Below, one piece after another: positions 1-10,961 of a stretch of 20,105 nt of DNA. The notes beneath the pieces were generated by a model. That model saw nothing but the letters and a program-made list of their open reading frames with translations, was not told the origin of the DNA and did not search any database. Position 1 is the first letter of the stretch; the number at the start of each line of letters is the position of its first letter. Made by a program: the position numbers and the translations under genes. Origin of the DNA: a virus; IMG/VR virus record IMGVR_UViG_3300031687_000134, positions 1 to 20,105 of that record; one strand, given 5' to 3'.

Positions 1-1574
1 GAACCAAATAGTTTACCCCGGTCACTTGAACGGTTAAACATCAGAGTACCTAAGTCTTGTACAGCGTTAATAGTAAACTTACGCATAACAGAAGTAGGCT
101 TTCCCCACACTTCACCAGTGTTATTGAATCGAACAAATGTCTGACGTAATACATCAGTAATAACAGCACGTTGGTTAATCGAAACATCTCTGCTTAAATC
201 ATTCACGAAACTAGTTATCCATTTTTTCTGTCTGTCCTCTAACACTATACTGTCATTTACACGCTTTATACGCTCTAATAAAATCTCAGGTTCTTGTACT
301 TGTAGATGTCTTCCGGCACCACTTGTATAATCAGCACCTTCAGCGTTCATTACTGAACCTTCACGATTACTCTTGAAAGACCTACGGCTTGCCTGCTTCT
401 GAGATAAGGAGTTCCCTTTAAAATCAGTTAAGGCTAATGCCTGAGAGTTATCTTGTACGTCATTCTTAAAGTGTGCTTTGAGAGCGGCCTTACCTGACTT
501 AGATGCCATAAGCTCATCTGGAGTAAAGAAATCTAAATCTACATTACTTTCGTTTTGTGCAGAAGGCCTCTTGACTGTCTGATTGGCTCTACGCATTAAT
601 CCACTAATACTTAGGGCTTTACCTAGAGGCGATACGAAGTCTTTTGCCTGTATTTTACCTTGTTGAAATAGTCTAGCCTGCTGTTCACCACCAAGCATTT
701 TAACTTGTACGTTAGTACCTTGTCGTCTTAACCACTTAGAAAAGCTTTTAATCTTACTAGGCTCACCTGTTAATTGGGTTGCGCTAATATTCTTTAAGTT
801 TCTAAGTTTCATGTTCTTAGAGTTTACTGCTAGTAAGTCTTCTTTAGACTTTACAACAGGAACCATAGTAGAACGACAGTTCCAATGTAACGGCGGTTGA
901 TAGCTTCTATCTTCTATATCATATACTCTGCCATTGTGAAATGCACATATCTGGCTTGTTCTACCATCTAGTATGGCAGTGAACATGTAGCCTTGCATTA
1001 CTTCTCTGTTAGCTTCCATTACCTGATTCAGAGCATTTGTCTGAGTTGCGGTTATAGATGTTCTTGTTAATGTCTTAGCTTGGTACTCTGTTATCTTGGT
1101 CGTCTTTAAAACGTCATTGATAATCTCAGTCTGAGTTAAACCTTTAGCTAAACCACCTTTTACTTTTGATTGAATACGAACCAGTTCACCAGCACTAATG
1201 TTGCTCATGTTCTTAGATAGTGTTTTAACACCTTTAATCTGTGGTCCTGTAATCTCAGCCAGCAATGCTTTACTGCTAGGCTTTTGTGTTCTGTAGAACT
1301 TCTTGATTTCAGCATCAAGGTTGTTCTTGTGAAAGACTTTCTGTGAGTTGGAGAACTCGGCTAGGCTTGTCTTGTTATGGCCTAGTAGTTCTTTTCCGAA
1401 GCGAGTTACTTCTGGTTTCACGTCTGTTCGGATATCCCCTTTTAAAAGGTCTCTCAAGTTATCTCTGTGTTTCTTAATGATTGTACGATTCTTTATTTGT
1501 ACACCATTCTCGTATAACCTTACGTCACCCATATGGTCAACAGTTCGGTCAAATATCTTTTCATTGATGTTCAT
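1..1574 (-). CDS. Phage head morphogenesis protein, Mu gpF / SPP1 gp7-like (3' end off the window)
   Basis: The frame is open from an ATG at 1574-1572 to the left edge: 524 codons with no stop, so the C-terminus is missing. The start follows a good ribosome site (GAGGAG, about 8 bases upstream). Residues 195-240 carry the family signature: DGRTSQIC (203-210) with H213, then PPLHWNCR (227-234) giving H230 and C233. This is the C...H..C pattern of the Mu F-like minor head proteins, which bind near the portal during procapsid assembly. Residues about 278-325 (WLRRQ ... LGGEQQARLFQQGK) match an extension I recall in several members of this family. Residues about 340-524 are not recognised; the family core alone is much shorter, so this C-terminal part could be a separate function. 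The portal gene lies 93 bp upstream, the usual pairing for this family. Confidence 0.85.
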   Translation of the reverse strand, partial: MNINEKIFDRTVDHMGDVRLYENGVQIKNRTIIKKHRDNLRDLLKGDIRTDVKPEVTRFGKELLGHNKTSLAEFSNSQKVFHKNNLDAEIKKFYRTQKPSSKALLAEITGPQIKGVKTLSKNMSNISAGELVRIQSKVKGGLAKGLTQTEIINDVLKTTKITEYQAKTLTRTSITATQTNALNQVMEANREVMQGYMFTAILDGRTSQICAFHNGRVYDIEDRSYQPPLHWNCRSTMVPVVKSKEDLLAVNSKNMKLRNLKNISATQLTGEPSKIKSFSKWLRRQGTNVQVKMLGGEQQARLFQQGKIQAKDFVSPLGKALSISGLMRRANQTVKRPSAQNESNVDLDFFTPDELMASKSGKAALKAHFKNDVQDNSQALALTDFKGNSLSQKQASRRSFKSNREGSVMNAEGADYTSGAGRHLQVQEPEILLERIKRVNDSIVLEDRQKKWITSFVNDLSRDVSINQRAVITDVLRQTFVRFNNTGEVWGKPTSVMRKFTINAVQDLGTLMFNRSSDRGKLFG

Positions 1575-1667: not shown

Positions 1668-3251
1668 TTACTCTTCTTCTAGAGTTATTTCTGAGTCTGC
1701 TGTAGTGTTAACCAAAGGGTCAACTTGAATAGCGGCAATAGCCTCTTCATCATTATAATCAGCAGGCAGGAAGTCGTTATACTTAGCGATGTTAACGAAA
1801 GTCTCACGGGAGATGATTCCACCCTGATACCATTCAGAAACAAGACGCATAGCACCTTCTCCACCGACAGTAGCGGCAAAGTCAGAAGACAATTGGAATT
1901 CAACATCATTACCAGTTAGTTCTGTGTCGTATTTCCAGTTAATCATAAATGCTAGTATTTCTTGCATAGTACCTGATATCTTAGCGTTCATAGTTCCTAG
2001 TTGTGCAGTCTGAGAAGCATTACGTATTTCTAAAGCAACACCTGAAGCGGCTTGCTCTGGAGACAACATGCGGATACCCATCTTAGCCATCTCTTCGACA
2101 GTAGATTGTATCGCTCTATCCATATCAGCTAAAGCACCTGTTGGTGTTTCTAATACAGTGATAGACTCATCTTTACGAACTCTTAACCATGTACCTAGAC
2201 CTGCATTAACTAAATCATCGAATTCCTCGTCAGTCATATCTGATTGTACAACAGGTGTATAAGTAGCGGCACCCATAAGTAGGTGGTTACGACGAGATAC
2301 TTTATTGTATAATGCGACTTCACGGTCAATCAACGGCATAAGCACGGGCTCTATTGGTTCAATCTGACCATTTAAAGGCCAAGCAGGAATCCTCTTAAGT
2401 CTCTCGCCAAACTTCATTGGGTAAACAGTGTCGTATAAACGGAAACCACCATCAGCAGAATCTTCATACTCTTGTTCAATGTTGCCATTCAATGCGTTAA
2501 CTTGGTGTGAGCCAGACTCTTTACGATAATAGTCTAAGACCAAATATCCTTCTTCGTCTAAGTAATGGTCACACACAGTGTCCACATAGCTAGGATGCCA
2601 AGGGTTTTCTGTTGTATACACCTCGGTTATGTACCTAGTTGTCCAGCGGCTAAGAGCCTTTACACGAGTGATAGGGTGTGTCTTTACCTGAACGTTAATA
2701 ACATTCTCTGCTTTAATCAAAACAGGGTAAGGAGAAATCATTGCTCTTTCTTCTACATCCATCATTTCTAATTCAGAATCAGAGACCATTGGTCTGTCAA
2801 TATAAACCCATGCACGAGAAGTTTGTAGTTCTTCCCATATAGCGGCATCTAGAAAGTTGAATAATGAAGCACCATCAAGTGTGATGTCCTTTGTAATCCA
2901 GTTATAAGCCTCTGCATTAACTTCGTTACCAAGAATTTCTTCAGGTAATGTGAGTGAAGAGGGTTTACGTAGTAATGCACTAATCAAAACACGAGCATAC
3001 TGAGTAGTCAAGCCTGGTAGTTCACCTTCTGATTTGTAGAAGTCGTATTGTGCTTGTGACATGCTAGGTGAGAACGGGAGTAATAAATTACTATAATCAT
3101 GCTCGATGTATTCATCATGTGCCTTAGCATGGGCTTCACCTTGGAGTACAGCACGAGCCTTCTTCCATAGTGGTTTTAGTGATAAGTAAGATGCACTAGG
3201 AGTCTCTACTCCACGCTTTTGCGTATTAGCGGCTGTCTTTATTAGAGCCAT
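1668..3251 (-). CDS. Portal protein, DUF4055-like
   Basis: This 527-residue protein resembles the DUF4055 class of phage portal proteins, which form the dodecameric ring at the capsid vertex through which DNA is packaged and ejected and to which the tail joins. Features used: an early segment ending in LISALLRKPSSL (89-100), DGASLFNFLDAAIWEEL (126-142) followed by SRAWVYIDRP (145-154), then SPYPVLIKAENVINVQV (173-189), a central IPAWPLNGQIEPIEPVLMPL (288-307), and ETPTGAL (368-374) before a helical region with MGIRMLSPEQAASGVA. The length suits a portal. The start has GAGG about nine bases upstream. The head morphogenesis gene lies immediately downstream, supporting the call. No terminase gene is visible beside it. 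The family name comes from remembered motif layout, not an alignment. Confidence 0.8.
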   Translation of the reverse strand: MALIKTAANTQKRGVETPSASYLSLKPLWKKARAVLQGEAHAKAHDEYIEHDYSNLLLPFSPSMSQAQYDFYKSEGELPGLTTQYARVLISALLRKPSSLTLPEEILGNEVNAEAYNWITKDITLDGASLFNFLDAAIWEELQTSRAWVYIDRPMVSDSELEMMDVEERAMISPYPVLIKAENVINVQVKTHPITRVKALSRWTTRYITEVYTTENPWHPSYVDTVCDHYLDEEGYLVLDYYRKESGSHQVNALNGNIEQEYEDSADGGFRLYDTVYPMKFGERLKRIPAWPLNGQIEPIEPVLMPLIDREVALYNKVSRRNHLLMGAATYTPVVQSDMTDEEFDDLVNAGLGTWLRVRKDESITVLETPTGALADMDRAIQSTVEEMAKMGIRMLSPEQAASGVALEIRNASQTAQLGTMNAKISGTMQEILAFMINWKYDTELTGNDVEFQLSSDFAATVGGEGAMRLVSEWYQGGIISRETFVNIAKYNDFLPADYNDEEAIAAIQVDPLVNTTADSEITLEEE

Positions 3252-3532
3252 ATTTGTTACCTCATTAAGTTAGATTAATGGGCACTAAAGCCCTTCTGTT
3301 GTTGTTGTTAGTTAAGTATATTTAAAGATAAAACACAATCATGTTACATCTTTGAAGATACCTAAAGTAATATTTAAAGTATAATTAAAGGGGGGTCGGG
3401 GGTCATAAGGGGACCCTATTTTTCTTCCTTAGTAAATAGGTAGCAGGAGGAGCTTTTACACACCTCCCACCTTGAGACCGTCAGACCTTGAGAGTCTGTC
3501 CCAAATTTCTTATCATAAGGGGACCCCATTTA
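3252..3532 (-). promoter_or_regulatory. 281-bp non-coding region between lysis and head modules
   Basis: No convincing gene lies here, yet the flanking genes are tightly packed, so the space is probably regulatory. It holds two copies of the 21-bp motif (3403-3423 and 3513-3533). It also has a direct repeat ACCTTGAGA (3469-3477 and 3485-3493), a small inverted repeat CAGAC/GTCTG (3482-3498) and GGAGG/CCTCC arms (3446-3450, 3463-3467). Further left are an ATCTT-TG-AAGAT dyad (3348-3359), two related AT-rich segments (about 3313-3329 and 3363-3382) and a GGGC/GCCC hairpin (3280-3293) before the portal ribosome site. A leader for a portal/head transcript is the simplest reading. Confidence 0.5.
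3403..3423 (-). promoter_or_regulatory. Conserved 21-bp motif, copy A (candidate promoter or operator)
   Basis: On the + strand it reads TCATAAGGGGACCC then TATTTTT. It matches copy B at 19 of 21 positions and copy C at 17 of 21, by direct comparison. It lies about 150 bp upstream of the portal start. The + strand sequence GGGTC-ATAAGGG-GACCC followed by TATTTTT also looks like a weak intrinsic terminator for transcription in the opposite direction, so this copy could have a different role. Confidence 0.4.
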
Positions 3533-3533
3533 T
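3513..3533 (-). promoter_or_regulatory. Conserved 21-bp motif, copy B (candidate promoter or operator)
   Basis: On the + strand it reads TCATAAGGGGACCCC then ATTTAT, and it begins directly after the endolysin stop codon on the transcribed strand. There it contains TTATGAT, close to a sigma70 -10 box, but no good -35 stands 16-18 bases upstream. The conservation across the GG..CC core argues for a phage-specific site rather than a plain host promoter. Confidence 0.45.
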
Positions 3534-4021
3534 TACTTAGGTATCTCGAAGTGAGGACCGTCAATGAATGGTTTCCTATTTTGACTCTTTCTCAGCTTGA
3601 CATAGGCATTGTGTGCCTTCAAAGCTTTGTTCTTGTCAAGGTCATGTGACCATGCCCCGCCCCAACGAAGGGGTGTCTTTAGTTCTTTAGCGGCCTTAGC
3701 AAAGGCTTCAGCTACAACGATGTAGTGAGCTAATTCCCAAGTTACTTTACCGTCCTTATATACCACAATATCTACAGCCATACCGTCTTGATGACGAGAG
3801 TGACGTATCTGTGATTTTCCTTGTATAACTAATTGGTTCTGTTCATGCTGAGTTCGGAGACCACAAGTGATTCCAAAGTCCATTACACTTAACTCAAGTG
3901 CACGTCTTGTAACCGCTATCAAAGCAGGGTCTACGCCCTCTAGCTTCATCTCTGAGCTTCCACCAAACTTGTAACCGCTCTTATTAAACATACTTCCTAA
4001 TTTCATTTTTCCAAAAATCAT
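3533..4021 (-). CDS. Endolysin, M15-family L-alanyl-D-glutamate / D-Ala peptidase
   Basis: A cell-wall peptidase of the VanY/T5-endolysin group that would cut peptidoglycan peptide bridges once the holin opens the inner membrane. With the start used here (162 residues) the zinc-binding pattern is clear: SRHQDGMAVD gives H77 and D84, and GPHFEIPK near the C-terminus gives H157. GLRT (54-57) and RWGGAW (119-124) are also typical. The frame extends upstream to an ATG at 4099, but that would overlap the holin by 82 bases. The ATG at 4021-4019 overlaps the holin stop as ATGA, the usual coupled arrangement, so it was chosen; an ATG at 4006 is an alternative. There is no signal peptide, consistent with holin-dependent release. 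No spanin gene was found. Confidence 0.87.
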   Translation of the reverse strand: MIFGKMKLGSMFNKSGYKFGGSSEMKLEGVDPALIAVTRRALELSVMDFGITCGLRTQHEQNQLVIQGKSQIRHSRHQDGMAVDIVVYKDGKVTWELAHYIVVAEAFAKAAKELKTPLRWGGAWSHDLDKNKALKAHNAYVKLRKSQNRKPFIDGPHFEIPK

Positions 4022-4410
4022 TGCTTCAACCTGTCTGCTATCTTCTCGCCTGAACGACCAACCACATAACCACCTACACCAATTTGTAATAGGTTCCAAA
4101 GTTCTTTAGGTAACTCTATCAAGAAGACAGAGCCTGTAAGCATATTAACCACGGGAAAGAATAAATAGTTCAAGGCAACAATGGCAATTATAACCATCAT
4201 CAATAGAGGTCTCCACGCCGCTGTTATCCAGTTGCTTGATTTAGCCTCTGCTAGAACAATCTCACCACTTAGCGCTTCTAGACTTTCTGAGTTCTCTAGT
4301 AACGCTAACTTTATCTCTTTTTCTACTTCCTCTGACTTGTCGCCATCGGGGATAAGGCGTTTAACCAAATCCCCTATGATGGGCGCAAGTACGGTAATTA
4401 TCGCACTCAT
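4018..4410 (-). CDS. Holin, 3TM gene-transfer-agent type
   Basis: A 130-residue membrane protein resembling the 'holin of 3TMs, for gene-transfer release' family. Its N-terminus is weakly hydrophobic (ITVLAPIIGDLV). A charged helical stretch (about 24-56) follows, then SSNWITAAWRPLL (58-70), a signature of this family, leading into a strong membrane span at about 68-90. A second segment at about 104-118 runs into GGYVVGRSGEKIADRL (113-128), also typical. It would form inner-membrane lesions that let the endolysin reach peptidoglycan. Its start directly abuts the TAA of the upstream fibre gene, with GGAG as ribosome site, and its TGA overlaps the endolysin ATG. This places both genes in one translationally coupled lysis cassette. 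Confidence 0.85.
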   Translation of the reverse strand: MSAIITVLAPIIGDLVKRLIPDGDKSEEVEKEIKLALLENSESLEALSGEIVLAEAKSSNWITAAWRPLLMMVIIAIVALNYLFFPVVNMLTGSVFLIELPKELWNLLQIGVGGYVVGRSGEKIADRLKQ

Positions 4411-5040
4411 TTATTTCTCCAATAATGTTTTTAACTCGTCTATCTGTTTCTGTTGCTCTTTAACAGCTTCTACTAATAGACCTACTATGTTGCCATAAGA
4501 CACTGACTTGTAACCGTCTTCAGTACTAGTGGAAACTACTTCAGGAACAATTACTTCTAGTTCCTGCGCAATTAAACCAATCTTCTTAACGCCCTGCATA
4601 GTATAGCTAACACCCCGAAGGCTTATAACTTTATCTAATGCAGACTCCAACGTTCTGATATCATCCTTTAGACGACCATCTGATGTTGTGTTTACATCCA
4701 CTGCTTGAATTATACCTGTAGAAGTCAAATTTCCGTTAATCTGGGCAGAAGCCGCTGTTACAGAAGTTGTTGCTACAAGAGTGTTACCTGTTACGATTCC
4801 CGCTGACATGTCTACGCTACTTACTTTAAGCGTAAACAAGGTCTTCCATCCGCTTCTATAAACCTTTAACAAAGGATTTGAGCCAGATGTGTCTAACCAA
4901 AACTTACCATCAAGGACCTCGTCTGTTGGTGCAGAGGAACCTGAGTGGCAAGTGTCTAATGCCGCCATTGCGTCGTTTAAATCAGCGGTGTAAGCTGTAC
5001 CTGATTGGACAGCAGTTATACTTCTAGTTGTTGTTGACAT
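4411..5040 (-). CDS. Short tail fibre/appendage with C-terminal S74 intramolecular chaperone
   Basis: The 209-residue protein has an N-terminal half (1-115) rich in Thr, Ser and Ala with a segment FWLDTSGSNPLLKVYRSGW typical of phage fibre attachment regions. Its C-terminal half is an S74 intramolecular chaperone. The self-cleavage motif SDGRLK places Ser120 and Lys125 at the S-x4-K spacing known for this family; KKIGLIAQE follows, and the end is a coiled coil (EAVKEQQKQIDELKTLLEK). In known members the domain trimerises the fibre and then cuts itself off just before the Ser, which here would leave about 119 residues. It sits 11 bp after the tail-tip gene with a strong AAGGAG site, so it is probably a tail-tip appendage. 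It is much shorter than the fibres further upstream. Confidence 0.82.
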   Translation of the reverse strand: MSTTTRSITAVQSGTAYTADLNDAMAALDTCHSGSSAPTDEVLDGKFWLDTSGSNPLLKVYRSGWKTLFTLKVSSVDMSAGIVTGNTLVATTSVTAASAQINGNLTSTGIIQAVDVNTTSDGRLKDDIRTLESALDKVISLRGVSYTMQGVKKIGLIAQELEVIVPEVVSTSTEDGYKSVSYGNIVGLLVEAVKEQQKQIDELKTLLEK

Positions 5041-5051
5041 TTAAATACTCC

Positions 5052-8000
5052 TTATTGTCCAATTGCTTGCCAATCAACGGTGCGTTGGACACGACTACCG
5101 CTATTGTAAATTGAGTATACAAACCCATTCTTGTTTCTTGATATGATGAAAAGCTCATCTCCTGTAGAACCGCCGATAGTGTTGGTTCCGATAGTCGGGT
5201 TACTAGTTCCTCCAATGCCACCATAGAAAGGTGTTGTGAAAGTCACTGTAGTATCCCCAGAAGTAGAACTTACTTCAGACCCTGTTTTAACAACATCCTT
5301 CTTATCAAGAAGAATACCTAATTGGCTTATAACAATAGACGTGTTAGTGTCTTGAGCTGTACCTATAAATTTGAACCTTAGTCCACGACAAGTAAAACTA
5401 CCAACAGTAAGCAACTCATAAGTTGACCAAGTAGGAGAACCAGCAGGGTTGTCTTGTGTTGTAGATACTAACACACGAAGTGCCGCTTGCTGAACAGGTC
5501 CTGCAAAGCTTGCTTGTGTTGAAACTAGAACATAATCTTCTACATCAACGCCACGGGTAGTAACCGCCGCCTCTATTGTAGGAGAAACTCTAACTGTCTC
5601 AACTTCACCTAAGTCTACATAACCGTTGTAAATATAAGTCATTTCGGTTTGTCCAGATGAAAGCTCTAGGTTTCCACCTATAACAGAACAATTAGTCTTC
5701 GTACCTAAATAACCCGGAGTATGTTCATCCGTTTGCTCAACCTGATTGAAAGAGTCGTCTACAAAGTTACTAACAACAGTCGCCGCATTTACAGAGTAAG
5801 TTCCGTGTGAGTCTTTAAACTTTATAAAGAACGTACCTTTAAGTGTTGGAACTGTTTTATTGTTTGTATTACCGGATAGAGAGTCAACAAGTCCTGCGGA
5901 AGTGTCCCAAGAGGCACTAGCAGTTACTGAGTTGTGGAAACGTATTTCACACGAACCCCCGTATATAACATCTAGGTCTGAGGACAGATTCCAAGAAAGG
6001 TTTATTTGACCTTCATTAATGTTTCCTGAGAACCCACTTGGGTCAGCGGGAGCCGCCGATAATCCTACCATATTGCTTGTAACAACAACGGCAGTACCGG
6101 GGAAGTCATAAGCACTAAAAGGAGTTACTTGGAAATCATAGCTAGCGTTTGATACGTCAGGTATAGTTATGTTATTTGAAGAAGTAGTACCGACGTCTAT
6201 ATAGACAGAATCAGTTGTCTTCTTGTACTCTACTTTGTAGTAGAAGTTATTAACACTTGACAAGTCGGGTGACCATTCAACTAATGCTCTTGATTTAACA
6301 CCAGAGGCATTGTTCGTGACATAGACTTCTTCAGTGATATTTATAGAGGAAACCTCAAGAGGCCCTTTTATTAATACTTGATTACTAACTATAGTAGCTA
6401 GGCTTCTAGAACCCAAGACAGTACGAACTACAACTTTAAAATCAAAGGTGTTAGCAGTATCTAATCCATCTAGTTTTCCGAAAGAAAAAGACTTTGTATT
6501 TGTAGTGCCTAAAGAAACGAAGTCGCTGTCAGCGCTAACCTTGAAGTAGATTTCATAAGTGAAGTTACCTAGGTTTTCATCATCAGCATAGTCCCATGTT
6601 AGTTTACCAACTTCGTAGTTAGCAAGACCTGTTTGAGAGACTACAATATTGTTTACCGATTCTACAGTGTGTGTGAACACCTCTGCCTTCGGGTATGCAA
6701 TACCATCTGCAACATTCCAAGCCAAAACATTCGGATTAAAGAAGGAAGCTTGAACCTCTGTAGTGAAGTCACCAGTTACTTTTACTGCCTGTACTCTGAA
6801 TACTGTGGCTGTGCTTAATCCAACTTCAGGTAGAGTAACATTTATTAGGTCGCCTGGCTCTAGTGTTAGACCTTCACGGTTAGTAGTAAAGTCTATAGTA
6901 AAGATTGAACGAGATGTTCTAACCATTTGCTCGGCTTTTGCTAGAGCATGGTAAGGGTCTGATATGTGGTCAGGGCTTACTGCCGCCTCAAAAGGTTGTC
7001 CGTTATCTTCTGCAAGAAATGTATTATGTACACCACTGCCTCTTGTCGGAAAGGTTGCACTATCTGTCTTAAAGTCTTCGTGTTCATTTAAGAATGAGAC
7101 CGTAACCTGATTGAACCTGTCTGATGCAGATGGGAATTGTATATTAAACAAATCTGAAAGTATATTGTCTTTGTTGAAAGACTGAGTTACTAACGCCGAA
7201 GTCTCGGAGTCATTTGCAGGGTAATCTAGTAGTAGCTTGTATTTGCCTTCAGTATCCCAAGTTAACTCTGCGTAGTTCATGGAAAGCATTATTGTCTCTA
7301 TGTTATCACGAATACCTTTTTCTGTATCTAAAGTAACGTTACATTCATATAGCGGTACATTCCGTGTAGGAACTGAGACTACGTTAAAGGAACCCGTAGG
7401 TTTCTTATCAGTGCCTCCTGTTTTAGCCCACAAGTAATAAATCAAAGTATCATCTGCCTGTAGAACAACGTCTTCATAACCCCAATCATTAGGGTCAGGG
7501 AAATCACCCGATGTAGGGTAAGATGATACAGGCTTAGAACCAAAGATGTGTCCCGCAATGGATGCGTTTGACAATACAGTAGACTCACATATTATACCAG
7601 CATCATAGAACGACTTAAGGTTTACCTCAGAGTCTAATAATCCTTTACCATAAACATTGTTCGTTAAGTAGTCTAGCAGAACAAAGGCAGGGTTGTTGGA
7701 ATATTCTCTTGTACTGTTTATACTGTAGGTAGAACCAGATAGAGTAATCTTTCTAATCTTTACACCATCTATCATAAATTGAACAGAAGGAGCGCCAGAA
7801 TAGTTACCTTCATCACGGTCAAGTCTAAAGACCTCTGCCGCATAACATACATTGGTAAATTTATCACTAGAAGGGTATCCGTTTGCCTGAAGCAAGTTAG
7901 AGGTTCCGCCATCAGGATATACTATTATCCTCTGGCCCTTCTTGTAGTCACGGTGTGAGAAAGACTTCTCATTCACTTTAATATGGTTTATTGCAGATAT

Positions 8001-8426
8001 GCCGCCATGACATATAGCATGTTTAGCAAACATAAATTCATTCTTTGTACCAGTAACGTTACTTGATAATGCACCTGAGTTTATAGGCTTAACGCTAATG
8101 TTCTCTAGTGTATTAAATAAGTTAACAGCAGTCATAGTGCCACTAACATTCTTCTTTGCGATGTCGTCTGACAAGAAAACAAACGTGTCATTTTCTGGTG
8201 CCGAGTAAACGTAGTCAGAAGATATTTTGTGGTCGAACTGAGTTCCACCCATCATCTGTCTTCCATAGACTACAGGTAGAGAGATAGCTTCGCTGTGGAC
8301 AGTAAACATAGAACCCTTACGAGCCTCTGCCGCCGCCGCCATCTTGGCCTTCATCTTCTTCGCTTGGTCTATAGTTATAGCGGTTGATATTAAGAATATC
8401 GTAATCTGTATTACAAAACCAGCCAT
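5052..8426 (-). CDS. Tail tip / host specificity protein, lambda J-like
   Basis: At 1124 residues this is the largest gene in the window. It begins with a hydrophobic stretch (4-19) and a basic, Ala-rich segment, then ISLPVVYGRQMMGG (48-61), a typical opening of J-like central tail tip proteins. A later FNQVTVSFLNEHEDF and the EPGDLINVTLPEVG segment are also characteristic. Between about residues 600 and 840 three stretches look like fibronectin type III repeats (LTWDYADDENLGNFTYEIYF, ALVEWSPDLSSVNNFYYKVE, INLSWNLSSDLDV). The C-terminal 250 residues are beta-rich and not recognised. It would cap the tail and contact the host surface. The ATG overlaps the upstream stop as TAATG, with GGGG upstream, so translation is probably coupled to the preceding tail gene. 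Confidence 0.85.
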   Translation of the reverse strand: MAGFVIQITIFLISTAITIDQAKKMKAKMAAAAEARKGSMFTVHSEAISLPVVYGRQMMGGTQFDHKISSDYVYSAPENDTFVFLSDDIAKKNVSGTMTAVNLFNTLENISVKPINSGALSSNVTGTKNEFMFAKHAICHGGISAINHIKVNEKSFSHRDYKKGQRIIVYPDGGTSNLLQANGYPSSDKFTNVCYAAEVFRLDRDEGNYSGAPSVQFMIDGVKIRKITLSGSTYSINSTREYSNNPAFVLLDYLTNNVYGKGLLDSEVNLKSFYDAGIICESTVLSNASIAGHIFGSKPVSSYPTSGDFPDPNDWGYEDVVLQADDTLIYYLWAKTGGTDKKPTGSFNVVSVPTRNVPLYECNVTLDTEKGIRDNIETIMLSMNYAELTWDTEGKYKLLLDYPANDSETSALVTQSFNKDNILSDLFNIQFPSASDRFNQVTVSFLNEHEDFKTDSATFPTRGSGVHNTFLAEDNGQPFEAAVSPDHISDPYHALAKAEQMVRTSRSIFTIDFTTNREGLTLEPGDLINVTLPEVGLSTATVFRVQAVKVTGDFTTEVQASFFNPNVLAWNVADGIAYPKAEVFTHTVESVNNIVVSQTGLANYEVGKLTWDYADDENLGNFTYEIYFKVSADSDFVSLGTTNTKSFSFGKLDGLDTANTFDFKVVVRTVLGSRSLATIVSNQVLIKGPLEVSSINITEEVYVTNNASGVKSRALVEWSPDLSSVNNFYYKVEYKKTTDSVYIDVGTTSSNNITIPDVSNASYDFQVTPFSAYDFPGTAVVVTSNMVGLSAAPADPSGFSGNINEGQINLSWNLSSDLDVIYGGSCEIRFHNSVTASASWDTSAGLVDSLSGNTNNKTVPTLKGTFFIKFKDSHGTYSVNAATVVSNFVDDSFNQVEQTDEHTPGYLGTKTNCSVIGGNLELSSGQTEMTYIYNGYVDLGEVETVRVSPTIEAAVTTRGVDVEDYVLVSTQASFAGPVQQAALRVLVSTTQDNPAGSPTWSTYELLTVGSFTCRGLRFKFIGTAQDTNTSIVISQLGILLDKKDVVKTGSEVSSTSGDTTVTFTTPFYGGIGGTSNPTIGTNTIGGSTGDELFIISRNKNGFVYSIYNSGSRVQRTVDWQAIGQ

Positions 8427-8986
8427 TATACTTTACCCCACTTTAATTGTAAGTCGTAACCATCATTTATCCTATCGAAACATGTGTCCGTAGTATCATA
8501 TTGGTCAGTACCAAATCTTGTTGTAAAAAATGGACGAACTATATCTAAGTCGGCCATCGGTGAAGAACATTCAATAGTAACAATCTTTGAATCAAAATCA
8601 TTAGTTATGCTCGGATTGTCTACAAAGCCCGTATAAACGTAAACTAGGTCAGTAGGTATAATCAGAGGGCCAAGCGTGTTATGGATAAATCCAGCACGTA
8701 TATTGACACCCTTACCAACAATACCAGCTCTTCCTTCTAAGAAGAGAGCGTTATTTGGGTCTACAAAAGAAACTTTATATGCTTCTCTGTCTAATACCGA
8801 ATTCTGTTTTGGAGCTTCATAACCAAATAAAGCACCGTTAGCTGTGTACAAGTTTCCGTCAACTGTTAAATCTGTAGAGTGTGATGTTAAATAATAATTA
8901 GTATTTAAGTTTAGCTCTACCAAGAAGAAATACTCAACATACTCCTGCGCAAGTGCGGCTTGCACATCCGTAGAAAATTGTCTCAT
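8426..8986 (-). CDS. Minor tail / baseplate hub-type protein (DUF2163-like)
   Basis: A 186-residue protein with the layout of the small tail-tip proteins that precede J-like proteins: an N-terminal helix (residues 1-16), then a beta domain with FFLVELNLNTNYYLT, YTANGALFGYEAP and LVYVYTGFVDNPS, followed by VTIECSSPMADLDIVRPFF. The end, DTCFDRINDGYDLQLKWG, resembles the conserved tail of such proteins, where a D-x-x-F segment and a final W-G occur. I place it loosely with the DUF2163/BR0599 type from this pattern; the assignment is not certain. Its start overlaps the stop of the upstream gene as TAATGA and its stop overlaps the tail-tip start, so three tail genes are translationally linked. Confidence 0.6.
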   Translation of the reverse strand: MRQFSTDVQAALAQEYVEYFFLVELNLNTNYYLTSHSTDLTVDGNLYTANGALFGYEAPKQNSVLDREAYKVSFVDPNNALFLEGRAGIVGKGVNIRAGFIHNTLGPLIIPTDLVYVYTGFVDNPSITNDFDSKIVTIECSSPMADLDIVRPFFTTRFGTDQYDTTDTCFDRINDGYDLQLKWGKV

Positions 8987-9588
8987 TAGATTGCCTCAAT
9001 TAAGTTTATTGGTCCGGGGCTTGCAAGTATTCCATCTTGAAAGGTAATACCTCGCTGGTCATCTATGCTTCTGAACTGAGTTAAAGTACAGTTAGAACCA
9101 TACAAGAATTGCGTGCCGCTTGGAACTGAAGTTCTTAGTGTTGGGTATACTTCTACAGGGCCTGATACAGTAGTGCTTGCGTCCCAGTCTGTTTTAAGTA
9201 AATAAACCTTTGTGTGATTTGCAAACCTTACAAAAGAACCTTTAGGTAGAAACCCAGCACCAGTGGCAAGTGCCAAAGGTATAGTAGAAGCGCCTGCGGT
9301 GATAGCTCCGTTAGCTGTAAATACTCCTGTTATTGTTCTCTTGTCGTCTACTTCTTTTAACTGTGGCATGATGATACTTGAAGAGGAAGCTAATCCACTC
9401 ACTGATGCTAGTAGCTGGTCAGCGGCCTTATCATTTGTTAGTACTTCAAAGCTTAGTTCCCAACGCTGTGCATTCTGTGCTGTACGTATTTGCTTCAGAG
9501 ACACGGTGTCTGCTGTAAACATGGGCTGGTTACTTACAATTGTTAGAGGAGCTAAAATTGGGCTACCTTGGTAATAATAAGCTGTCAT
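8986..9588 (-). CDS. Minor tail protein of unknown family
   Basis: A 200-residue, beta-rich protein without signal peptide or membrane span. The segment QRWELSFEVL (residues about 41-50) followed by an Ala/Leu-rich helix and a beta domain (FLPKGSFVRFANHTKVYLLK) is seen in tail proteins coded next to J-like tip proteins. The FRSIDDQRGITFQDGI stretch near the end supports a structural role. Its position, two bases after the NlpC/P60-like gene and overlapping the next tail gene, makes a distal tail or baseplate component the best reading. I cannot assign a named family. The ribosome site is TTAGGAGA, inside the last codons of the upstream gene. Confidence 0.6.
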   Translation of the reverse strand: MTAYYYQGSPILAPLTIVSNQPMFTADTVSLKQIRTAQNAQRWELSFEVLTNDKAADQLLASVSGLASSSSIIMPQLKEVDDKRTITGVFTANGAITAGASTIPLALATGAGFLPKGSFVRFANHTKVYLLKTDWDASTTVSGPVEVYPTLRTSVPSGTQFLYGSNCTLTQFRSIDDQRGITFQDGILASPGPINLIEAI

Positions 9589-9590
9589 AA

Positions 9591-10055
9591 TTATTCTCCT
9601 AAATATATGGGTCTAGCGTGAAGCTGTAATGTGATTTCTTTGGGTAAGAACCTACGCTGTGGCTTAACGCCCTTGTTTCTTAAGTCTGCGGAAAACCAAT
9701 AGTTATCGCCAGCAATCATAGCGCCGCCAATGCCTTGTTGAATGTCAAATGCTATATCGCCTGTCTCCGGTTTCCGGTCCTTTACAGGTTTAAATTTCAT
9801 AGCTAGTGTGAACTTTATTAAGTTCGAATAACCCAGTTGTTCATGTATTCCTTGCAAGAACTCATCTGAATCGTTATATGAGAGGGTAATGTCTTTGCTA
9901 AGTGATAAATCACCTCTTAATGCTCTTTCATATTCTAGAAGAAAGGCAAAACAATCGTTATATCCCCTGATAAAACGGTCCGCACTCTTTGCTCTACTGT
10001 CAATAACTGTCTTGGCCGCATCTAAGGCGACTTCTAATTGTGTAATACTATACAT
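9591..10055 (-). CDS. NlpC/P60-like tail protein (DUF6950-like), probably not an active peptidase
   Basis: A 154-residue protein with the N-terminal pattern RFIRGYNDCFAFLLEYERALRG (27-48): the N-D-C motif places Cys35 at the head of a helix, as in NlpC/P60-type papain-fold proteins. PETGDIAF (97-103) matches the segment before the catalytic His in that fold. The following GGAMIAGDNYWF lacks a His, and the only later His is H146 near the C-terminus. The catalytic pair therefore seems incomplete. Such proteins correspond to lambda K and help assemble the tail tip. It starts the compact tail operon, after a long hairpin and a good GGAG ribosome site. An alternative is an active enzyme with a rearranged His. 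Confidence 0.62.
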   Translation of the reverse strand: MYSITQLEVALDAAKTVIDSRAKSADRFIRGYNDCFAFLLEYERALRGDLSLSKDITLSYNDSDEFLQGIHEQLGYSNLIKFTLAMKFKPVKDRKPETGDIAFDIQQGIGGAMIAGDNYWFSADLRNKGVKPQRRFLPKEITLQLHARPIYLGE

Positions 10056-10070
10056 GTTCTCTCCTATAGA

Positions 10071-10148
10071 GTGAGCCAGAGAGAGGCACTAGGGGTCTTC
10101 CGATGATAGTCACCATCCAACCTAACCTAACGTCTCTCTCTGTGCCAC
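10071..10148 (-). other. Long intergenic hairpin between phoH and the tail operon
   Basis: The arms CAGAGAGAG (10077-10085) and CTCTCTCTG (10134-10142) are perfect complements. GTG (10071-10073) and CAC (10146-10148) extend the stem beyond a 3x3 internal loop. The loop contains a second hairpin, GATGAT (10102-10107) with ACCATC (10112-10117), one pair being G-U in the minus-strand RNA. It also contains a tandem GTTAGGTTAGGTTGG segment (minus strand). The structure begins just after the phoH stop and ends about 16 bases before the next start, leaving that gene's ribosome site free. No T-run follows, so it does not look like a standard terminator. Confidence 0.55.
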
Positions 10149-10149
10149 T

Positions 10150-10887
10150 TTAGATGCCTTCCTCGATAAACATTCTAACTAAGTCAGCTACAATGTCACT
10201 ACGAACAATATCATCTACTCCAAATTCAATTATAGGAAGGTTTATACCCGCCCTATTTACTCTGTAACAAAATTCAATTAAGTCTTTACCACTACGAACA
10301 TCTGACTGTGCAGGGTCTCCCATAAGAACTAACTTAGAGTTTTCACCTAGTCTTGTTGTAATAGCCTTTAATTCTTCCATACTAAGGTTCTGAGCTTCAT
10401 CTACCAACACCAGAGCGTCCTCATAAGAGCGACCTCGGATAGTTTCTATTGGTTGGATTTCAATCTCACCCTTGTTAAGCATGTACTCGTATTTACCTCT
10501 ACCAAAAGCTTTTCCTAAAACTTCGAGCATAGGCATTAACCAAGGAGTCATCTTCTCAGCAATTGTGCCGGGGAAGTGTCCTAATGATTTGCCAGTCGGA
10601 ACGTTAGCACGAGTCAATACAATCTTCTTGTATCCACCCTTTAAAAATAGTTGTGCAACCGTTCCCGCACTACAGTATGTCTTACCTGTACCAGCGCAAC
10701 CCATCGTAGCAACAATAGGAGCTTCTTTTATAGCGTCAATTAAATCCTGTTGTTTCTCATTCTTAGGTAGAATATGGAAACGGGTAGGTGGATTCTTTAA
10801 ACGATATATATTCGTCTTATCTTGCTCCTGCTCGTAAGCGGGGCGTCGATTAGATTTTTCAGTGAAGCGAGGTTTGCGTTTAGCCAT
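10150..10887 (-). CDS. phoH: PhoH-like P-loop ATPase
   Basis: A 245-residue P-loop protein with all the main marks of the phage PhoH family. GCAGTGKT (63-70) is the Walker A motif, ALVLVDEAQ (158-166) the Walker B motif, followed by LMGDPAQSD (188-196) and an Arg-containing DIVRSDIV (226-233). TRANVPTGKSLGHFPG (92-107) is a conserved PhoH segment. The first 30 residues are basic. PhoH proteins bind ATP and are related to the helicase/RNA-associated ATPases; their role in phages is not settled, and a link to phosphate starvation is by homology only. It sits alone between fibre and tail-tip genes, preceded by copy C of the 21-bp motif about 55 bp upstream and a GGAG ribosome site. It may thus be the first gene of its own transcript. 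Confidence 0.93.
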   Translation of the reverse strand: MAKRKPRFTEKSNRRPAYEQEQDKTNIYRLKNPPTRFHILPKNEKQQDLIDAIKEAPIVATMGCAGTGKTYCSAGTVAQLFLKGGYKKIVLTRANVPTGKSLGHFPGTIAEKMTPWLMPMLEVLGKAFGRGKYEYMLNKGEIEIQPIETIRGRSYEDALVLVDEAQNLSMEELKAITTRLGENSKLVLMGDPAQSDVRSGKDLIEFCYRVNRAGINLPIIEFGVDDIVRSDIVADLVRMFIEEGI

Positions 10888-10940
10888 TAATTAGTCTCCG
10901 AAAGAGTGTTAAAGAGAAAGACAAGGCCCTGACAGCCCTA

Positions 10941-10961
10941 TCATAAGAGGTACCTATTTAT
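10941..10961 (-). promoter_or_regulatory. Conserved 21-bp motif, copy C (candidate promoter or operator)
   Basis: On the + strand it reads TCATAAGAGGTACC then TATTTAT. It begins directly after the stop codon of the 148-residue fibre-like gene, exactly as copy B follows the endolysin stop. In the minus-strand sense it ends CTTATGATAGGG, with TATGAT as a possible -10 box. The core AGGTACCT is palindromic. It lies about 55 bp before phoH. Confidence 0.45.

Follow-up and report, generated by a model that had tools for sequence, protein, structure and literature searches.

A recurrent intergenic motif in a marine siphovirus-like genome fragment is almost certainly the promoter of a phage-encoded T7-family RNA polymerase

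Overview

The window, the whole stretch of DNA analyzed here, is a fragment of 20,105 bases that constitutes a complete IMG/VR record. It carries three copies of a short intergenic motif that are almost certainly promoters of the phage's own T7-like single-subunit RNA polymerase, since the signal and the DNA-reading loop of this enzyme change together in dozens of related phages. Judged by their sequences, these T7/SP6-type promoters are known in kind and new in sequence. The first-pass annotation had likened the motif to promoters of the SP6/T7 kind, a reading that gained support from the synteny of the element, from a T7-type polymerase gene with a downstream copy in relatives, from one contig that joins such a gene to the window's own core, and from covariation with the specificity loop. 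In the proposed mechanism, a polymerase of ~730 aa would be made early and its specificity hairpin (T7 residues ~740-770) would read an 8-bp recognition core at -12 to -5 in the major groove, flanked by an AT-rich segment (-17 to -13) and a T[AT]A[AT] melting stretch (-4 to -1), with initiation at GA. The enzyme would thereby start the structural units, with a tandem promoter pair serving the portal/head genes and the third copy serving phoH and the genes that follow it. We infer the transcription start at the motif and the timing of transcription from sequence.

Promoter copies at the heads of gene units

All genes of the window lie on the minus strand and comprise tail fibre genes, phoH, tail genes, a holin, an endolysin, the portal and a MuF head protein. 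Copy A (ATAGGGTCCCCTTATGA, 3403..3419, minus strand, predicted +1 the G at 3404) and copy B (ATGGGGTCCCCTTATGA, 3513..3529, minus strand, predicted +1 the G at 3514) form the tandem pair as P2 and P1, respectively, 110 bp apart in the gap between the endolysin (3533..4018, minus strand, PHROG 465), whose stop codon copy B adjoins, and the portal gene (1668..3251, minus strand, PHROG 145, 48% to the cultured phage DSS3_VP1), the first gene of the unit behind the pair. Copy C (ATAGGTACCTCTTATGA, 10941..10957, minus strand, predicted +1 the G at 10942) lies ahead of phoH (10150..10887, minus strand, PHROG 170), with a gene of unknown family on its other side. Direct reading of the sequence bore out the three 21-bp copies described earlier in one orientation at 3403-3423, 3513-3533 and 10941-10961, their strand being the coding (minus) strand, and a recount returned the same identities of 19/21 (A-B) and 17/21 (A-C, B-C). 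It was also true that B and C lie right at the TAA stop of the gene preceding them, with the last A of TAA opening the 21-mer, and that the copies head new gene units, A and B before the portal and C before phoH. In the transcript from promoter C, a 9-bp hairpin (window 10942-10920, minus strand) would start at the very first base, followed by TTTCTCTTT.

The copies have the one-sided layout of a T7/SP6-type promoter within ~17-20 bp (AT-rich -17..-13, core -12..-5, T/A-rich -4..-1, G at +1) and, like such promoters, recur on the coding strand where gene units begin. The window core is GGGTCCCC; copy C departs from this core at -10, -9 and -6 and, given these differences, may be a weaker promoter. 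In a window scan, the only matches to a derived pattern, itself built from copies A, B and C, were these three copies, with 0 matches in 100 shuffles. The 17-bp consensus with up to 3 mismatches likewise matched 3 times, all on the coding strand, with 0.07 matches expected per shuffle.

The presence of TATGAT in B and C and the palindromic nature of GGGGTCCCC and AGGTACCT favor an alternative in which the motif is a promoter for host sigma-70 or an operator that overlaps a -10 box, the latter being the other option of the first-pass annotation. Neither B nor C has a TTGACA-like partner on the coding strand, the sole minus-strand match (3406-3378) falls after the motif, and the arrangement of a -35 TTGACA 16-18 nt before a -10 TATAAT on the coding strand is absent. 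In relatives the palindrome is missing (ACTTGACC, ACCCGCAAA) and TATGAT is replaced by TAATGA or TAAAGA, which makes this alternative extremely improbable. A hairpin promoter of the N4 virion-polymerase type was rejected as well, because relatives do not preserve the palindromic core.

The whole window had no nucleotide match in the phage collection, and neither Rfam matches nor tRNAs were found in it. Its portal and tail genes match Naomviridae/siphovirus families; the podovirus module of Autographiviridae with T7-like portal and tail genes was not found.

Conserved layout and changing core in related phages

Relatives, which are Naomviridae-like marine siphoviruses, were collected as 80 contigs via the portal gene, 17 via the exact pattern and 80 via the RNA polymerase, together with the cultured relative DSS3_VP1 (Naomviridae). 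An unsupervised search for repeated intergenic 20-mers recovered a recurrent element in most long relatives at the same syntenic sites, which are the region ahead of the portal gene, where the copies form a tandem pair, the one ahead of phoH and the one that follows the RNA polymerase gene. By sequence, the core is lineage-specific and the layout is identical across relatives, consisting of ATA, an 8-bp core, T[AT]A[AT] and GA in the T7/SP6 register. The elements read GGGCGGAA in G001-G003, CCCGCAAA in G004, CTTCGCCC in G007, CTTGACCC in G015, CCTGACGT in G006, G008 and G010, CCTGACCT in G009 and GGGTGCGT in DSS3_VP1. Each relative's record held 2 to 12 elements, nearly all on the coding strand, compared to 0.03-0.23 in shuffles. 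An element was present upstream of the portal in 70 of the 77 portal loci, in 37 of them as a tandem pair ~110 nt apart, while six of the seven loci without one have less than 360 nt of upstream sequence present. The first-pass annotation had made the promoter reading depend on further intergenic copies; these were looked for in the genomes of the relatives and are present, so that the reading stands. Contig G019 has a portal 87% identical to that of the window, and its tandem promoters carry the window's core.

A de novo repeat search revealed no clear promoter family in Kolga EXVC016S and EBPR siphovirus 1; Kolga yielded a single weak candidate, AAAAAGACACYCTTACAG, present twice. Pattern matches in L116, L121 and L126 were dismissed as unrelated because they lie inside predicted genes. 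Seven contigs with window-type promoters (L111, L113, L117, L118, L120, L122 and L125) share an additional promoter site that is followed by a conserved G-rich leader (CCTTGGGGAAGGGGGATTATGGGGGTAGGGGT).

A T7-type RNA polymerase with a promoter copy downstream

The first-pass annotation had recommended a search for a single-subunit RNA polymerase gene. Ten long relatives encode a protein of ~730 aa (about 700-780) that exceeds the Pfam RNA_pol cut-off (E about 1e-75 to 1e-88), and alignment with T7 RNA polymerase showed the five T7 catalytic residues checked (D537, K631, Y639, H811 and D812) to be invariant. Most of these genes are followed by a promoter copy about 170-270 nt downstream, past a small open frame. 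Contig L199, which stems from the same metagenome as G019, encodes a polymerase of this type with intact catalytic residues and carries ATAGGGTCCCCTTATGA, the window's exact core. The window is a fragment without that gene, and its own polymerase, encoded outside the contig, would resemble that of L199 with R746, K748 and R758 (T7 numbering). The earlier statement that no polymerase gene lies in the window thus holds for the likeliest reader of the motif. It does not hold for the truncated gene at 3..1574 (minus strand), which is cut by the contig end, matches MuF and represents the N-terminal part of a head-morphogenesis protein whose homologues run on into a T7-fold RNA polymerase domain.

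Covariation of the promoter core with the specificity loop

For 39 polymerases of less than 95% identity, the downstream promoter was paired with each alignment column in a blind scan of ~590 columns. The top-ranked columns, given as T7-equivalent residues, were 748 for -11, 758 for -8 and 746 for -7. When changes were counted on a tree built without the specificity loop, residue 748 ranked first of 589 for both -11 (p 6e-5) and -10 (p 6e-7), and residue 758 ranked first of 589 for -8 (p 2e-6). The link between -7 and 746 ranked 177 on the tree and was seen in the blind scan alone; in T7, R746 contacts -7. Core bases thus covary with specificity-loop residues in both analyses for -11/748 and -8/758.

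The resulting code pairs D/E748 with C-11, K/R748 with G-11 and L/Q/S748 with T-11, and at the second position R758 with C-8, K758 with A-8, D/E758 with G-8 and Q758 with T-8. Exceptions were E748 with T-11 (L194), K748 with T-11 (L192), K758 with C-8 (L191) and N748, which differs between T7 and L203. In L252, residue 748 has changed from the E of its sister group to L and promoter positions -12 to -10 from CCT to GTG, while 758 and GACGT are unchanged. T7, T3 and SP6, outgroups that were not part of the scan and whose promoter sequences were taken from general knowledge, fit the code in seven of eight comparisons (R746/C-7 in all three, Q758/T-8 in T7 and T3, D748/C-11 in T3 and R748/G-11 in SP6). 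In the T7 enzyme, N748 contacts -10/-11, R756 contacts -9 and Q758 contacts -8, within a loop spanning 739-770 (PMC5937735). Because the covarying residues 748 and 758 are known T7 specificity-loop contacts, the covariation supports the motif as the promoter of the ~730-aa polymerase.

The same evidence bears on the reading of the motif as a recombination, packaging or origin repeat instead of a promoter. Recombination could make use of identical repeats placed at module boundaries, and T3 has an annotated origin beside its first promoters, but the position on the coding strand at gene-unit heads and the covariation with polymerase residues speak against a repeat-only role, to which we attach almost no likelihood. 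A secondary role in replication is conceivable.

A second polymerase fused to the MuF head protein

Full-length homologues of the window gene at 3..1574 measure about 1,450-1,584 aa (one full-length example is L159:11757-16193), and their extra domain exceeds the RNA_pol cut-off. The catalytic motifs DxRGRVY, DASSSGAQ (DASASGAQ in DSS3_VP1), K-x7-YG and TIHDAF were found in all 23 MuF-polymerases checked. Searching solved structures by sequence turned up no polymerase relative; such relatives emerged from fold comparison, in which the structure model (mean pLDDT 75.6, pTM 0.68) matched T7 RNA polymerase with a Z of 28.4 over 619 aligned residues at an rmsd of 10.9, as well as mitochondrial polymerases and the N4 virion polymerase (Z 20.1). 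Within the phage collection the protein occurs only in DSS3_VP1, DSS3_PM1 and EBPR siphovirus 1, where it is annotated as a head protein. In EBPR siphovirus 1 (JF412302.1 27802-31141) an HNH endonuclease gene interrupts the match, one part of which falls in a head protein and the other in a hypothetical protein. According to Iyer et al. 2017 (PMC5512222), N4-like virion polymerases are confined to N4-like phages and nearly always form a fusion with a metallopeptidase. The MuF-fused protein is a candidate virion polymerase in siphovirus-like phages, and because of its fusion to MuF it would be packaged and injected.

Because long relatives encode a complete second T7-fold polymerase right after the portal gene, the motif could alternatively be the promoter of this candidate virion enzyme and not of the ~730-aa polymerase. 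Its relation to the core was judged by loop comparison and not by the covariation control, which returned scattered top columns with 18 sequences left and the L014 and L016 promoters wrongly assigned. The loop region of the MuF-fused polymerase is conserved between genomes (66% identity against 64% for the rest of the domain) although the motif core changes completely, whereas the loop of the ~730-aa polymerase is the diverged one (40% against 62%) and covaries with the core at contact residues. Assignment of the motif to the MuF-fused enzyme is therefore very unlikely, and the ~730-aa polymerase is the preferred reader.

Structured RNA between the tandem promoters

Two hairpins lie between the tandem promoters. 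H1 (3470..3505, minus strand), just downstream of P1, is a bulged hairpin of two stems with an invariant 4-nt 3' bulge that is backed by covariation, and H2 (3442..3471, minus strand) is a strong, terminator-like hairpin recognized by fold prediction and sequences, followed by a T-rich stretch in many relatives. In relatives, about 7 to 19 nt of the P1 transcript precede H1, which consists of a stem, a CAG...CUG stem and the constant 4-nt 3' bulge. Both partners have changed in ten of its 12 pairs, and pairing holds in 89.6% of cells, as against 26.6-47.0% when slid. Its covariance model found one copy per genome, at the tandem-promoter site, and none in DSS3_VP1. By position, the analogue of H1 is R1.1 of T3, an RNase III site directly after phi1.1. 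The structured RNA may serve as a processing or termination site or be a small RNA.

An early element and a possible two-polymerase program

A further element, AAAAAGTGRGRAAA...CATCTATAATGA (the TATAATGA element), occurs as 49 distinct copies across 32 genomes or loci; every copy is on the coding strand, and shuffles gave 0. In records that hold the RNA polymerase gene, this early element usually lies a few kb upstream of it. Its positions include 35791 and 36238 in DSS3_VP1 (L081) and 17746 in G019 (portal-forward coordinates). It is often followed by a GATAC...GTATC stem. Unlike the late promoter it is near-constant between lineages, a constancy that would fit either a virion polymerase with a conserved loop or host sigma-70.

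We tentatively propose, as a possibility somewhat short of even, a two-polymerase program independent of host RNA polymerase, in which the injected MuF-fused polymerase would read AAAAAGTGRGRAAA...CATCTATAATGA and lead to the second polymerase and its fast-switching late promoters, the tandem late promoters bracketing a ~90-nt conserved structured RNA as a discrete transcript. This group of marine siphoviruses probably relies on a transcription cascade like that of T7. With many natural promoter/polymerase pairs whose core has switched repeatedly between relatives, they offer a direct test bed for the long-studied T7-family specificity code and could supply mutually orthogonal polymerase/promoter pairs.

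Comparison with known systems

Noahvirus arc DSS3_VP1 (Naomviridae) has the same gene order around the portal, an RNA polymerase gene whose product is 48% identical to the L199 polymerase, 12 coding-strand promoter matches of the same layout, the MuF-polymerase fusion and the same early element, but differs in its core (GGGTGCGT) and is without the bulged hairpin of other long relatives. The SP6 promoter shares the register (AT-rich upstream, core -12 to -5, TATA-like -4 to -1, start GA), and GGTGAC is common to it and the DSS3_VP1 copy ATAGGTGACGTTAAAGA; in contrast, the window core is GGGTCCCC, and SP6, a Salmonella phage, is a podovirus (Autographiviridae). T7 and T3 promoters differ in core sequence and start with GG rather than GA, and the present phages resemble siphoviruses and possess an additional, MuF-fused polymerase. 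On the other hand, T7 and T3 promoters have the same length and register, their -11 and -8 positions are recognized by residues 748 and 758, and their first copies likewise lie just behind the polymerase gene (phi1.1 after gene 1).
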